36,925 bases of DNA from Porticoccaceae bacterium (GTDB taxonomy: Bacteria > Pseudomonadota > Gammaproteobacteria > Pseudomonadales > Porticoccaceae). Under the pieces are notes generated by a model, which saw only the letters and a list, made by a program, of their open reading frames with translations, made no database searches and was not told the DNA's origin. The stretch covers positions 1-36,925 of the forward strand of contig JAFMBY010000018.1 of the NCBI GenBank assembly GCA_017858135.1. Reading direction: 5' to 3'. How positions within the stretch are numbered: the first letter of the stretch is position 1; each line of letters opens with the position of its first letter. Positions 11,990 through 18,000 of this stretch are shown here, piece by piece. A program made the translations under genes and the position numbers.

Positions 11990-12721
11990 TTAGTATTCGT
12001 CAAAATCACCGAAATCGTCTTCGATAACACCATCATTGACTAAGTATCGACTGCGCTGAAGATAGACATCTCTGACAAACAGATACTTGTCACCCGATAT
12101 CATTTCGTCCAGCTCTAACAGACTGACTCTTGTCGTCAGCAAGTCTAAGGCTCTGGCAGAATTTCGAAACCGTATATTTTCCGCATAGGACAATGGACTG
12201 GTTAAGCTATCGACGAACTTACTCGGGGCATCTCTCAGCGTTGACGGCCCAACCAACGGCAACATTAGATACGGGCCCTCTCCCACTCCCCAGACACCCA
12301 GTGTTTGACCGAAGTCTTCACCATCACTTTTGCTCATACCTGCACGTTCAGCAACATCAAATAAGCCGGCGACTCCAATCGTCGAATTGATCAAAAATCG
12401 ACCGCTGTCATAACCCGCTTGACTAAACTTACCCTGCAGCAGGTCATTGACCACATTGGTAACCTCATCGAGATTACTGAAGAAATTACTGACCCCGCGT
12501 TCAAGCACATTGGGCATAATTGCTGTATAGGTAACAGCCACTGGCCGCAGAGCGAAATGATCGAGGCGTTCATTAAAGTAGAATACAGGGCGATTAACAT
12601 CTTCAAAGCGATCGGTGTCATCTGCCTGCGCCAATATCGCCAGCAGCGGTATTGATAAGATAATTGTAACCAGCACTCGAAAGACCATTGGTTTCGCTGC
12701 AGTGGCGGGTGACGATTTCAT
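11990..12721 (-). CDS. mlaA: MlaA/VacJ-family outer-membrane lipid-asymmetry protein, no lipobox
   Basis: MlaA sits in the outer membrane, removes phospholipids from the outer leaflet and passes them to MlaC. The 243-residue product has a signal peptide (hydrophobic IILSIPLLAILAQA, cleavage probably before DDTDRF). Typical MlaA blocks follow: FEDVNRPVFYFNERLD, RPVAVTYTAIMP, SNFFSNLDE, FGQTLGVWGVGEGPYLMLP and YLFVRDVYLQR near the end. The canonical protein is a lipoprotein, but there is no cysteine at the signal cleavage site or elsewhere in the chain. It must therefore be held in the membrane by its body alone. It stands 94 nt downstream of bufC on the same strand; the other mla genes are not in the window. 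Confidence 0.9.
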   Translation of the reverse strand: MKSSPATAAKPMVFRVLVTIILSIPLLAILAQADDTDRFEDVNRPVFYFNERLDHFALRPVAVTYTAIMPNVLERGVSNFFSNLDEVTNVVNDLLQGKFSQAGYDSGRFLINSTIGVAGLFDVAERAGMSKSDGEDFGQTLGVWGVGEGPYLMLPLVGPSTLRDAPSKFVDSLTSPLSYAENIRFRNSARALDLLTTRVSLLELDEMISGDKYLFVRDVYLQRSRYLVNDGVIEDDFGDFDEY

Positions 12722-12815: not shown

Positions 12816-13586
12816 TTAGTGAAATCCGCAAATAATATCTTTACTGCGCAATGTAGTAAGAAGTTCAACACCAAATTCAACCATGGCGTCGGGATTGGAA
12901 TGCTCAAGCTCGCCAGCTAGTTTAAGTAGTGCGGCCCTACCGGTAATCATCTCGTCAGCTAAAATCTGCAGTAAACGCCGAGTTGTCGGGTTGATTTCAA
13001 TAAACCCAACCTGCATCTGACGATCGCGATAAACGATGATATGGGTTGTATCAGCCTGCTCTGGAGATGGCTGAAAATCTCGTCCAATTCTGTGTACTGG
13101 ATACTGGTAGCTAAGCACCCAGGCCAGCGGAGAGATTACGGGCTGATCGGCAAGCAAGTCACCGTCGAGTTTAACCTTAGGGAGCTCGATGGCCGACACA
13201 TCCAGGGCTAATTCCACCCACTCGTAATGAGCCAGCTCCAGCATAAACCCGGGATCTGTCGTCTGAGGAATACGTTCGCTCTGCAAGTAGTGCAAGAACT
13301 CACTACCAATCTCTAAAAAGTAAGGGCTGTGACTCTGATGGCGATGGACAAAATCGCGCACCAGCGACACCCACCTGTCCGTATCGGTTATAGATTTTAA
13401 GATAGGAAACCCATTGGCGATGAAGGACTCGATGTTGTTGAAAAACAGGTTTCTATAGATTGCTAGGCGGCGATCCTCAATCCCTTCAGGCGCCGAGTTC
13501 GACAGCGGATTTCTAATGTGGCCAGCAAACTCAAATTGCACACGCTGAAAAAGTGGCTGTGAGGCAACCGTGAACTCTCTATTCAT
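12816..13586 (-). CDS. bufC: BufC/HvfC-type DUF2063 partner protein of a DUF692 oxidase
   Basis: This 256-residue protein has an N-terminal DUF2063 domain (about 10–105), with the characteristic RRLAIYRNLFFNNIESFIA followed by GFPILKSI. A C-terminal domain (about 150–250) contains INPTTRRLLQILAD. In characterised systems (MbnC, HvfC, BufC) this partner binds the DUF692 iron enzyme and presents the precursor peptide to it. Its ATG overlaps the bufB stop by 4 nt (ATGA), so the two products should be made in equal amounts. The next gene on the strand is mlaA, not the DoxX-like protein often found here. I cannot judge its peptide-binding residues by eye. Confidence 0.87.
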   Translation of the reverse strand: MNREFTVASQPLFQRVQFEFAGHIRNPLSNSAPEGIEDRRLAIYRNLFFNNIESFIANGFPILKSITDTDRWVSLVRDFVHRHQSHSPYFLEIGSEFLHYLQSERIPQTTDPGFMLELAHYEWVELALDVSAIELPKVKLDGDLLADQPVISPLAWVLSYQYPVHRIGRDFQPSPEQADTTHIIVYRDRQMQVGFIEINPTTRRLLQILADEMITGRAALLKLAGELEHSNPDAMVEFGVELLTTLRSKDIICGFH

Positions 13587-14431
13587 ACTGCATCCAACCG
13601 ACTAGTCACGCAGTGCTTGCTCTGACAGTCTCTAATCTGTTCAACCTCAGCCAGTAAATCATCGACCGGTGGAATATTAAAATCTCTCTCCAAAAGAGTT
13701 GGAAAGTCTCCAAACTGGCAATAAGCCGCATCTAGCAGTCGCCAAACCGGATCAATCACATTTGCGCCATGGGTATCGACACGCAGATCTTCCGCTTCTT
13801 TATAGTGGCCGGCTATGTGAGCGTAGGCAATACGCTCCCCTGGCAGCGCCGCCAAAAATGCATAGGGATCGTAATGGTGGTTGATGCTGTTGACATAGAT
13901 ATTGTTAACGTCGAGCAGCAGATTGCAGTCGGCCTTTTTAAGTACCGCATTGAGAAAATCGATCTCTGACATTTCCTGCTGTGGCGCGGCATAGTAAGAG
14001 ACGTTTTCCATGGCAATGCGCTCGCCGAGAAAATCCTGAACCTGCATAATTCGCTGCGCTACATAGTCAACTGCTTCTTCGGTAAAGGGGATTGGCATCA
14101 AGTCATAGAGATGGCCGCTATCGCTGCAATAGCTTAGGTGTTCGCTGTAACAACGTATTGAGTGCTCAGAGATAAACCTCTTGATGGCGCGCAGCAGGTC
14201 CCAGTCAAGCGAGGAGGGAGAGCCGATAGAGAGAGAAAGTCCGTGGACGACAAAGGGGAATTTTTCGGTGTACCTGCGCAGAGAGGCCCCGTAACGACCG
14301 CCGACATTAATCCAGTTTTCCGGTGCGACCTCCATAAACTGCACCTGCTCAAGAGACACAGAGGAAAGCGGTTCGCAAAGCGACCGCCTCAACCCCAAGC
14401 CTGCCCCCTGAACAGGGTAGTGCTTTTTCAT
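13583..14431 (-). CDS. bufB: DUF692 multinuclear non-heme iron oxidase (BufB/HvfB, MNIO)
   Basis: MNIO enzymes use two or three iron ions and O2 to convert precursor cysteines into heterocycles such as oxazolone/thioamide or 5-thiooxazole groups. The 282-residue chain is a TIM barrel of normal size. Likely metal and active-site residues are spread over the barrel strands: EVAPENW, VVHGLSLSIG, SEHLSYC, AMENVSYY, LLDVNNIYVN, HIAGH, DTHG and LLERDFNIP, the usual DUF692 pattern of His, Glu, Asp and Asn. It overlaps bufC by 4 nt and lies 65 nt after bufA. That gap holds a weak ACGTAT/ATACGT inverted repeat (14437–14463). Its own ribosome site is weak, whereas bufA has a strong one. Confidence 0.93.
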   Translation of the reverse strand: MKKHYPVQGAGLGLRRSLCEPLSSVSLEQVQFMEVAPENWINVGGRYGASLRRYTEKFPFVVHGLSLSIGSPSSLDWDLLRAIKRFISEHSIRCYSEHLSYCSDSGHLYDLMPIPFTEEAVDYVAQRIMQVQDFLGERIAMENVSYYAAPQQEMSEIDFLNAVLKKADCNLLLDVNNIYVNSINHHYDPYAFLAALPGERIAYAHIAGHYKEAEDLRVDTHGANVIDPVWRLLDAAYCQFGDFPTLLERDFNIPPVDDLLAEVEQIRDCQSKHCVTSRLDAV

Positions 14432-14496
14432 TCGCTACGTATCTAAGACGATCTAAAATACGTCAGAATGAAAAATAATACTGGCAAATGAGTGCA

Positions 14497-14895
14497 TTAA
14501 GCTGCTCCACCGCACTTGCCTTCACTATCGGCTTTTTCACCACCGCATGTCCCCTCTTGGGCAGCTTTTTCACCACCACATTTTCCTTCACCGCATTTTC
14601 CTTCGGCTTTGGCTTTATCCTCTCCACATTTGCCTTCACCAGCTTTGTCTTCACCAGTTTTATCTTCGCCGCACTTTCCCTCAGTTTTGGCTTTGTCTGC
14701 ACCGCATTTTCCTTCACCGCATTTACCCTCGGCACCGCCAGCAGCAAGGTTGTAGCCAGATCGCAATTGATCAGCTTGAAAAGGGTTTTCAGCGGCAAAT
14801 GTTGGTGCCGCTAGTGCGACAGTAGAAAGGGCTGTGGCAGCGACAAAAGCTGAGCCAACAGCAGTGACAAGCGGATTGGTGTTGTGTTTATTCAT
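14497..14895 (-). CDS. bufA: BufA/HvfA-type cysteine-repeat RiPP precursor (bufferin/oxazolin-like)
   Basis: This is a 132-residue exported precursor. The start at 14895 is fixed by AAGGAG 8 nt upstream; longer readings have no such site. A Sec signal peptide covers about 1–35 (TALSTVALAAPTFAA, cleavage before ENPF). After a short linker comes a low-complexity Gly/Lys/Glu/Asp region from residue 55 to the end with eight cysteines: 59, 64, 74, 90, 101, 106, 117 and 128. Seven are in EGKCG and one in EGTCG. EGKCG is the motif modified by HvfB/HvfC-type enzymes in Haemophilus copper-binding RiPPs, and related bufferins buffer periplasmic copper. Which cysteines are modified here is inference. 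bufB and bufC follow on the same strand. Confidence 0.88.
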   Translation of the reverse strand: MNKHNTNPLVTAVGSAFVAATALSTVALAAPTFAAENPFQADQLRSGYNLAAGGAEGKCGEGKCGADKAKTEGKCGEDKTGEDKAGEGKCGEDKAKAEGKCGEGKCGGEKAAQEGTCGGEKADSEGKCGGAA

Positions 14896-14973
14896 TCGAC
14901 ATTCTCCTTGTTGTGGCAACGTTGCCAGATCATTCTCCATATATCTCACTCCAGAACGGAATTGAGACGCTTC

Positions 14974-15003
14974 TCTGACCCAACTGTTGCAAAGAAGTTT
15001 CAC
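14974..15003 (-). promoter_or_regulatory. Possible ECF-type promoter upstream of bufA
   Basis: On the minus strand, GTGAAACTT (from 15003) is followed 15 bases later by GGTCAGA (ending at 14974). The arrangement resembles an extracytoplasmic-function sigma promoter (GAACTT-like –35, TCTGA-like –10). It lies about 80 nt before the bufA start, in the 166-nt gap after hrpA. Buf operons are often controlled by ECF sigma factors. The match is short and could be chance, and no sigma/anti-sigma gene is present in the window. Confidence 0.3.
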
Positions 15004-15061
15004 GGTTGGGCAGTTTTTAGTTCAGCCGTTTTTAACCAGCACAATCTCGACCGGGGTAGTC

Positions 15062-18000
15062 CTAACCAGCCTGCACTCGAAATCGTCTCAACTGCTCATC
15101 AAGTGTAGTCCAGCTTTTTTCGAGGCGCTTCAGAGAAACCGGAACGCGCGTCTTCAACTGTTGAGCAAACAGCGATACGCGATATTCCTCGACATACCAG
15201 CAATAGTCGAGCAAGGCTGTTTCCAGTTCACTGGAAAGCGGCTGATCATCGACCAATGCCGCTTTGCATGGCGCCAATAACGCATTGATCGCGGTGATAT
15301 AGTCGCGGTCTTTGCTGTGCTGTGTCGTCAGCTTATCGAGTCGCACCTGAATCGCCCTGATGTATCGCGGGTATTGACTGATGATTTCGCCAGTGACGTT
15401 TTTTAGCGTTGCTGAGGCAAACAACCAGTCGAGCTGATTGCGAATATCCTCAGCGGCATAGATCGCCGGCAAACCTAAACTGCGCAGTTGCTTTTGCAGA
15501 TCATGCAATCGCGGTAATAATGACTCAATGGCGCCAGTATAGTCCTGAGCAAGCCCGACCACCTGACCAATACCAAACTCATAGGCCTGATCAAACTGTT
15601 GTTGATCTCTAACAATTCTCTGACCTGCAGCCTGCGTTGCGGAAGCTGCCAGAGCGGAGGAAACAGCCTGAGCGGAGGAAACAGCCTGAGCGGAGGAAAC
15701 AGCCTGAGCGGAGAAGATAGCCTGAGCGGAGAAGATAGCCTGCTGAAAACTAGCACTAATTAGCGCATCGATTACCTGCTGACGCTCACCAATTTTTGCT
15801 GCGGAGAGCGCAAGGTCTTTGCCTCGCAGCAGATGTTTATGCAGATATCTGACCTGCTCACGGCCGCGGATTAGCGCCAGACGGAGTTGACCTTGACGAC
15901 TCACCTTCTCCGCCTGCAACGGATTATCCATCACCTCGAGCGCCACACAATCGCCGCAATCGCGCAGAGCCGGCCAAGCTTTAATGCTAATGTCTCCATG
16001 CTGCAGTGCGACTTCTTCTGGCAATTCAAAATCCCACTCCGTGATTCCCTTCCGCGAGGCGCTTTGGTCGGCGGCCTTCTCCAGCCCCTGGCTAATTTGC
16101 TGCTTAAAGTCGCGCTGCAATTGCTCGAGACTTCGCGCCATAGCGATGGCGACACCATGCTCATCCTCCAGCACAAAATTCATCTGATACCAGTCGTCAA
16201 GACTGTCCTGCCGCCACTGCTCAGATTCAATAACGACGCCGCTCACCGTTCGCAAGTGGGCCGCAAGCACCTCGACCAGAGGTTTGTCTTGAGGCTTAAC
16301 TTTGCGCAAAAAGGCATCGACATGATCGGGCACCGGAACAAAATTTCGCCGCGTCTGCTTCGGCAAGCTTTTCACCAAAGCGATACATTTGTCACGCAAC
16401 ATACCTGGCACCAACCATTCAAAAAAGTATCTCGGCAATTGATGTAAAAGGGCTAAGGGTACAACTGCACTAACGCCATCTTCGATATGACCGGGTTCAA
16501 AGTGATAGCGCAGCTGATAGCTGATGCCTTGGCAGCTAATAGTTTCCGGAAACTGCGCCTGCTCGTCTTGAGAGAGTCCACGCAGCAACAGATACTCTTT
16601 CTCCAGCATCAGCAGTTGTGGATTTTTAGTCTCAGCTTGCTTGCGCCATTTTTCAAAGGCCGCCAGATTGTAGATACCCTCGGGAACGCGCTGATCATAA
16701 AAGTCGAAAATCACCTGCTGCTCGACCAACAGATCACGACGCCGAAAGCGGTCTTCCAGTGCTTGTAGCTCTTCAACCAGTTTGTGGTTGTGGCGATAAA
16801 ACTCGCCTTTACCGCGATAGCCCTCTTCCACCAGCGCCTGCTGAACAAAGACTTTTCGCGCTTCCTGTGGCGCAACCTGGCCGTAGACGCGGTTTTTGTT
16901 TTCAACAATGCTCAGGCCAAACAATGTTTGGCGCTCTTTGGCCATTACCTGACCGGATTTTTTATTGTAAAAGGGTTCGCTGTAGCTCTTTTTGACTAGG
17001 TGCGCCGCCAGTGGTTCGAGCCAGTCGGAATCGATTTTTGCCACGGTTAAGGCGAACTGCTTGGTGGTCTCCATCAGTGAGCCGGCCATCAGCCACTTCG
17101 GTGGTTTTTTACTTAATCCAGAGCCAGGAAAGATAAAAAATTTGCGATTGCGGGTGCCGAGATATTCCCACTTATCTTGCAGGATGCCCACCTGCCCAAG
17201 CAGGCCTGAGAGGATTGAACGATGTATGGCATCCTGCTCCGCAGGCTCAGTATTGACATTCAGCTTAAGCCCGCGACAAGCGGTGTGAACCTGATGATGC
17301 AGGTCTCGCCATTCGCGCATGCGTAAATAGGAGACGTAATGAGTCTTGCAGTAACGGCTGTATTGATTGCCCGACAAATTTTGGCGCTGCTCTTCAAAAT
17401 GTCGCCACAAATTTAGCAGTGAGACGAAATCGGAGTTTGGCTCTTGCCATTTTTTATGACTCTGATCTGCAGCCTGCTGCTTATCAGCCGGGCGCTCACG
17501 GGGATCCTGAATACTCAAACCAGTGGTAATAATCATCACTTCGGCGAGACAGCCATTGTTGGCAGATTCTAGTAGCATTCGCGCAAAACGCGGGTCCAGA
17601 GGAATATTGACTAGACGCTTGCCAAGACTGCTTAACTTGCCGTCTTCGGTCACCGCCTGCAATTCTTCCAGCAGCTTAAAGCCATCACTGATCATGCGTT
17701 GGTCTGGGGGGTCGACAAAGGGGAAGTTGCGGATATCACCAATTCTCAGATGCAGCATCTGCAAAATAACCGCAGCCAAATTAGTGCGCACGATTTCCGG
17801 GTCGGTAAATGCTGACCGGCCCTGAAAGTCCTCTTCCGAATAGAGCCGATAACAGACGCCGTCGGCAACCCGACCACAGCGTCCAGCACGCTGATTGGCA
17901 CTGGCCTGAGAAATTGCCTCTATAGGTAGCCGTTGCACTTTGCTGCGGAAGCTATAACGCGACACGCGCGCTCTGCCGGTATCGATAACATAGCGAATTC

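Follow-up and report, generated by a model that had tools for sequence, protein, structure and literature searches.

An hvfABC locus of a Porticoccaceae bacterium with an unlinked, co-inherited HvfX and a probable ECF-type promoter

Does a peptide-maturation locus with no DoxX-like gene beside it do without that partner, or is the partner encoded elsewhere, and what switches such a locus on? We address this for hvfABC, a three-gene locus for a ribosomally synthesized and post-translationally modified peptide (RiPP) in a Porticoccaceae bacterium (assembly GCA_017858135.1, contig JAFMBY010000018.1). The window analyzed here is the whole contig of 36,925 nucleotides, C100 in our numbering, from a 2.4 Mb genome of 139 contigs that is estimated to be 96.5% complete. 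A first-pass annotation of this DNA had named the locus bufABC and found it unusual in lacking a DoxX gene and an extracytoplasmic function (ECF) sigma factor gene, and in running towards mlaA. Our explanation, to which we give a probability of about 0.8, is that this is a SAR92-clade hvfABC locus with an unlinked but co-inherited HvfX, and that hvfA is probably under ECF control.

The closest named loci, whose HvfB proteins are 83-89% identical to that of the window, are those of marine metagenome-assembled genomes of Porticoccaceae and Pseudomonadales and those of MOLA455 (85%) and HTCC2207 (86%), the last a member of the SAR92 clade in the NCBI taxonomy. We infer that the genus of the window is SAR92, a marine group. 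Comparisons were made across 50 genomes of this genus and across 293 genomes of the order, all of the latter at least 90% complete.

The hvfABC genes and their distant partner

The locus is transcribed on the minus strand, from about 15.0 kb to 12.8 kb, and consists of three genes.

14497 to 14895, minus strand: hvfA, 132-residue captophorin/oxazolin precursor with a putative Sec signal, a conserved NPFQADQLRSGY leader, seven EGKCG motifs and one EGTCG motif
13583 to 14431, minus strand: hvfB, MNIO (DUF692, PF05114) peptide maturase
12816 to 13586, minus strand: hvfC, DUF2063/NGO1945_C partner protein

A gap of 65 nt separates hvfA from hvfB, and hvfB overlaps hvfC by 4 nt. The Ala-rich N-terminus of HvfA resembles a Sec signal peptide, as judged by eye from its own sequence and those of congeners, and is followed by NPFQADQLRSGYNLA and then by the EGKCG/EGTCG motifs, with eight Cys in total. 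HvfA scored 63.9 bits against the NCBIfam KCGExKCG_twice domain NF050137 (cut-off 19.5), which was detected in 22 of the 50 genus genomes, and 42.4 bits against the full-length HvfA equivalog NF050188, under its cut-off of 95; it has no Pfam match at E 0.001, and so no DUF2282. HvfB alone among the proteins of the genome matches PF05114 (350 bits), and it reached 441 bits against the HvfB equivalog NF003818 (cut-off 360); with the BufB model it stayed at 265 bits, below the cut-off of 310. HvfC scored 306 bits against its equivalog NF050145 (cut-off 142) and matches PF09836 and PF22106 in Pfam. Among solved structures HvfB is closest in sequence to 3BWW, an MNIO (E 8.7e-77), and HvfC to 3DEE, a DUF2063 protein (E 3.1e-13). 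These assignments are not due to chance, because the NCBIfam scores that carry them exceed their cut-offs. With a repeated-EGKCG precursor, an adjoining HvfB-type MNIO and an HvfC/PME1 DUF2063 partner, the locus is, judged by its genes, hvfABC of the known EGKCG captophorin/oxazolin kind. The first-pass annotation had thus read the precursor motifs, both DUF families and the 4-nt overlap correctly, as well as the HvfA/B/C kind of RiPP; the name buf gives way to hvf on the two model scores. It had also supposed that the eight motifs, if all modified, would make a high-capacity metal sponge. This number is ordinary, as HvfA has 4-10 Cys among 20 congeners and the Microbulbifer precursor MmrA five to eight (Tang et al., 2025, PMC12538549), and we rejected an exceptional metal capacity on the congener range.

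A Pfam DoxX search of the genome returned three proteins, on contigs C33, C91 and C58, and none on C100. The first is HvfX.

Contig C33, 46181 to 46834: HvfX, 220 bits against NF050144 (cut-off 80)

Of the other two, one reached 39.8 bits against the same model and one had no match. HvfX is therefore encoded in trans: the absence of a DoxX gene holds for the neighborhood and the contig and fails for the genome, and we rejected a system without DoxX. In Haemophilus influenzae HvfX belongs to the operon; here it lies off the contig. We do not treat this linkage as defining for the class, because the published core genes vary in combination and because HvfX is unlinked in 82 of 123 genomes of the order (below). 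The position of HvfX is itself conserved: a DEAD-box helicase gene and a MATE gene flank it in all 24 HvfX-bearing genomes of the genus, one of them with MATE beyond the contig end.

Elements upstream of hvfA and hvfX

Upstream of hvfA are a promoter candidate and, more tentatively, a leader structure.

14974 to 15001, minus strand: candidate ECF-type promoter of hvfA, GAAACTT-N15-GTCAGA
14943 to 14968, minus strand: possible 5'-leader hairpin of hvfA, an imperfect inverted repeat right downstream of the -10 box

Of 20 congeners, 18 have GAAACTT or GGAACTT, 15 bases and GTC(A/T)GA upstream of hvfA, the two without the pattern being G065 and G069; G003, G015 and G070 are excluded from this set by contig ends. 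Scored with an 11-site matrix built without its own genome and the nearest group, the window site reached 23.3 bits, and the next best site in the window 11.5. The genome has a single exact match to the pattern; allowing one mismatch gave two, against eight for a backwards control, so a regulon is not definable from it. Outside the genus set, a broader form of the pattern, fixed after some of these loci had been inspected, was found in 14 of 55 scannable loci (block shuffles: mean 0.06, maximum 2), three further loci having been left out for lack of a usable start or a precursor open reading frame (L229, L187 and L200). Six of the 14 are labelled Porticoccus, some are near relatives of each other, and at least one possibly belongs to the genus. 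The distance to the assigned start is 83-101 bp in 12 of them and 113 and 198 bp in the others, with a spacer of 15 in 13 loci and 16 in one. We rejected a sigma-70 promoter for hvfA: four sigma-70-like sites were found between 11900 and 15100, where 3.9 are expected, and none of these is upstream of hvfA. The conserved candidate ECF-type promoter of hvfA is new here.

A stem at the leader repeat is predicted in all 20 congeners folded singly, a count with no shuffle control behind it, and the congener sequences differ on both arms. Consensus folding gave 0 or -0.16 under default scoring, and ribosum scoring lowered this to -7.8 kcal/mol; the support is weak, and an Rfam search of 14400-15100 returned one match, below threshold.

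The hvfX gene has an upstream element of its own, GGAAT(T/C)T-N15-(A/C)TCTAA, which 22 of the 24 genus genomes share when one mismatch is tolerated; G003 and G028 lack it, and the match in G015 sits elsewhere in the alignment. In the genome of the window this pattern has one match and its control none. The hvfA and hvfX elements are alike in layout, and elements of this layout resemble sigma-E/AlgU promoters.

The genome has 16 sigma region-4 matches, 15 of them over cut-off and none on C100, so no sigma gene adjoins hvfABC; RpoE is among the proteins encoded (TIGR02939, 308 bits). Upstream of the 10 of 16 sigma loci that were scanned, the best hvfA-matrix score was 14.7 bits, at a gene start (L173), and the best hvfX-matrix score 12.0 (L174). 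The former is a partial match (L173, 1109-1141) just before the start codon of an ECF sigma gene with weak FecI-like matches. The absence of an ECF sigma gene from the window, as first annotated, is thus real. It is not unusual: an ECF-type promoter precedes hvfA, and in H. influenzae the hvf homologs are reported to depend on the ECF factor RpoE2, strongly so under hypochlorous acid (HOCl), with the RpoE2 gene in the msrAB-dmt region and its locus tags distant from those of the hvf genes (Nasreen et al., PMC7907618). For the bufferins, sigma/NrsF genes are reported for Buf1 and not for Buf2 biosynthetic gene clusters (Antoine et al., 2025, PMC12452194).

We suggest the following working for the system, its chemistry drawn by analogy with published relatives. 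HvfC would presumably bind the HvfA leader and present the EGKCG repeats to HvfB, which would use iron and O2 to convert Cys to 5-thiooxazoles before export to the periplasm. There the peptide may chelate Cu(I), or otherwise shield the envelope from thiol or metal stress. HvfX would be the fourth member of the system, encoded in trans and possibly acting on the HvfA peptide. Transcription of hvfA is probably activated by an unlinked ECF sigma factor, and hvfX may be under similar control. The same promoter lends itself to an alternative that we consider possible though on balance doubtful: that the primary role is in oxidative, HOCl or envelope thiol stress, not copper, with an ECF-controlled thiooxazole module and HvfX as its redox partner. 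The RpoE2 dependence under HOCl in H. influenzae favors it, as does the reported lack of a copper response of mmrABC in Microbulbifer (PMC12538549); the published EGKCG products, however, bind copper (PMC13097082, PMC12538549).

Inheritance of HvfX with hvfABC

The arrangement hrpA-hvfA-hvfB-hvfC-mlaA-spoIIE-like-STAS is fixed in 21 of 22 fetched congeneric MNIO loci, several of them cut by contig ends, and none of the 21 matches any of the three DoxX proteins encoded in the window's genome. The remaining locus is that of G032, which has a different MNIO (L049, 7764-8570; 33% identity to HvfB) near a contig end, with its upstream region beyond the contig and no hvfABC; we did not score it as hvf-positive.

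Both hvf and HvfX are present in 22 of the 50 genomes of the genus and neither is in 25; one genome carries only hvf and two carry only HvfX (G070 being counted as hvf-positive from its hvfC and hvfB). The genome with hvf alone is G069, 76% complete; those with HvfX alone are G028, which keeps an hvfC remnant, and G031, which is 85% complete and in which mlaA was not found. Because any DoxX protein is present in 45 of the 50, the association is specific to the HvfX subfamily. It extends to the order, where HvfB exceeded its cut-off in 137 of the 293 genomes and HvfX in 126: 123 genomes had both, 14 had HvfB without HvfX, three had HvfX without HvfB and 153 had neither, so that 123 of 126 HvfX genomes have HvfB. 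These counts took in only HvfB over cut-off and ignored MNIOs below it. The two genes are within 10 kb of each other in 41 of the 123 genomes, in all 41 within 3 kb. Of the 82 unlinked pairs, 20 share a contig and are at least 97 kb apart; the other 62 are on different contigs, where a contig break between neighbors is possible case by case. In 13 of 14 families with variable HvfB, HvfX is more frequent among genomes that have HvfB; one family is tied and none is reversed (sign test, p 0.0002; family-labelled genomes only, kinship inside families ignored). We conclude that HvfX is co-inherited with hvfABC, largely kept or lost with it, and in the order mostly unlinked from it. This too is new here: the literature searched, which left supplements and most subscription papers outside, held no report of an unlinked HvfX that tracks HvfB.

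Shared ancestry alone, with no functional link, is an improbable source of this co-occurrence. The genus tree by itself offers few independent contrasts, and the order-level test ignores relatedness inside families; against this, the association recurs in 13 of 14 variable families with none reversed, and it singles out the HvfX subfamily, whereas DoxX proteins at large occur in 45 of the 50 genus genomes. More improbable still is a truncated or decaying cluster without DoxX function, whose product is made and not properly used. DoxX is missing both from the window's contig and from the 21 congeneric hvf loci, and the hvfC remnant of G028 shows that hvf decay does occur within the genus, but the hvfABC reading frames are open and conserved among congeners (identity 74-89% for HvfB and 52-80% for HvfC) and HvfX is intact elsewhere and co-inherited. 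In G028 itself the remnant (L148, 4496-4939; 148 residues aligned, 42% identity) lies between hrpA and mlaA, HvfX is intact and there is no precursor match, as in a decaying hvf locus.

Several observations weigh against an unlinked, co-inherited HvfX together with ECF control of hvfA. Outside the genus set, 41 of the 55 loci have no hvfA pattern upstream of hvfA; neither of the two upstream matrices, for hvfA and for hvfX, recognizes the sites of the other; in 20 genomes outside the genus (some with uncertain start codons) the region before hvfX showed no ECF-like pattern; and rpoE has no hvfA-type site in the 398 bp upstream of it. On a tree of 48 genus genomes (G019 and G031, with no locus, left off), hvf and HvfX each take five changes; among five independent contrasts, HvfX shifts together with hvf in only three to four and in the opposite direction in none, too few for significance alone. 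Fourteen of the 137 HvfB genomes have no over-cut-off HvfX, and at least one HvfX copy (G248, contig C8) adjoins an MNIO below the HvfB cut-off, so some HvfX proteins may serve other MNIO clusters. Finally, the Microbulbifer mmrABC proteins are reported as undetected in proteomes with or without copper (PMC12538549). Since the matrices are not interchangeable and the hvfX element appears in none of the 20 genomes outside the genus, co-regulation of hvfA and hvfX is put forward as a hypothesis for this genus only.

Neighboring genes, published relatives and implications

One further gene lies close downstream of hvfC.

11990 to 12721, minus strand: mlaA, same strand, 94 nt after hvfC; the only MlaA match in the genome

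In genomes without a precursor match we took 26 further congeneric loci around mlaA. In 24 of these hrpA adjoins mlaA with no hvf match between, across gaps of about 0.1-0.4 kb (1.1 kb in G006); the remaining two are G070, with hvfC and hvfB and a contig end within hvfB, and G028 with its hvfC remnant. Because the hrpA-mlaA adjacency holds without hvf genes, mlaA is an inherited neighbor in the genus and does not speak for a lipid link, and what had been described as an operon running towards mlaA is genus synteny; we rejected mlaA as an operon member. The least probable of the alternatives, that hvf and mlaA form an envelope-lipid system whose peptide serves outer-membrane asymmetry and not metal, has the shared strand, the 94-nt distance and the lack of a listed terminator-like site between hvfC and mlaA in its favor, and against it that adjacency in 24 of 26 loci, a weak sigma-70-like site directly before mlaA (at chance level) and the absence of the word mlaA from the main text of Antoine et al. 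(PMC12452194). On the other side of the locus, hrpA carries an 18-bp tandem repeat in its coding sequence (15648-15742, minus strand; 5.3 copies, 94% matches), which gives this HrpA-like helicase an extra stretch rich in Ala, Ser and Gln at about residues 1117-1148, inside its DUF3418 match.

The closest published locus is the DoxX-less mmrABC of Microbulbifer, for bulbicupramide, also with three genes for an MNIO, a DUF2063 protein and a precursor with EGKCG repeats; its flanking open reading frames were judged unrelated, and the words DoxX and sigma are absent from the main text (PMC12538549). Its product binds copper, and a change of -8 Da is reported for a two-Cys cassette (Tang et al., PMC12538549). 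Our locus differs in its genus, in the ECF-type promoter and unlinked HvfX found here, and in that its product is predicted from the genes. The oxazolin locus hvfABCX of nontypeable H. influenzae resembles it in an EGKCG-repeat HvfA, in HvfB and HvfC, and in that the genome encodes a member of the HvfX family, and differs in having HvfX within the operon, where ours is on a separate contig, and in six modified Cys against eight Cys here; HvfX is called "yet uncharacterized" in that 2026 preprint (PMC13419390). The fontiphorin/captophorin class shares the EGKCG precursor, the MNIO and the DUF2063 partner (PME1). In that other taxon seven 5-thiooxazoles were shown, a chemistry presumed for our locus; EGKCG peptides are described as carrying 5-thiooxazoles and binding copper, with a possible contribution of DoxX (Gadgil et al., 2026, PMC13097082). 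Bufferins of the Buf1 (DUF2282) and Buf2 types likewise combine an MNIO and a DUF2063 protein with a Cys-rich precursor that bears a signal, putative in HvfA, and differ from our locus, which has no DUF2282, a BufB score under cut-off and no adjoining sigma gene. The Buf_EGKCG/oxazolin precursors span 31-506 residues in some 2,000 proteins, and the combination of core genes around them varies (PMC12452194).

A bolder reading, which we hold only tentatively, is that EGKCG peptide biology has in HvfX a dedicated partner that acts in trans and that selection retains wherever hvfABC is retained, though the genes are mostly unlinked in the order, and that in this clade both loci are under unlinked ECF control through envelope or thiol stress rather than copper. 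If true, such control would explain the silence of mmrABC under copper in culture; that none of the 20 hvfX upstream regions outside the genus has the element lowers the probability of this reading.

The locus itself is an ordinary one, hvfABC being already well described in other genera, and the first-pass annotation read its genes correctly and mostly mistook ordinary features for unusual ones. Neighborhood-based surveys would score such clusters as DoxX-less. The role of HvfX becomes testable by plain gene removal, and the conserved ECF-type promoter offers a concrete hypothesis on what induces EGKCG loci that copper left unresponsive.

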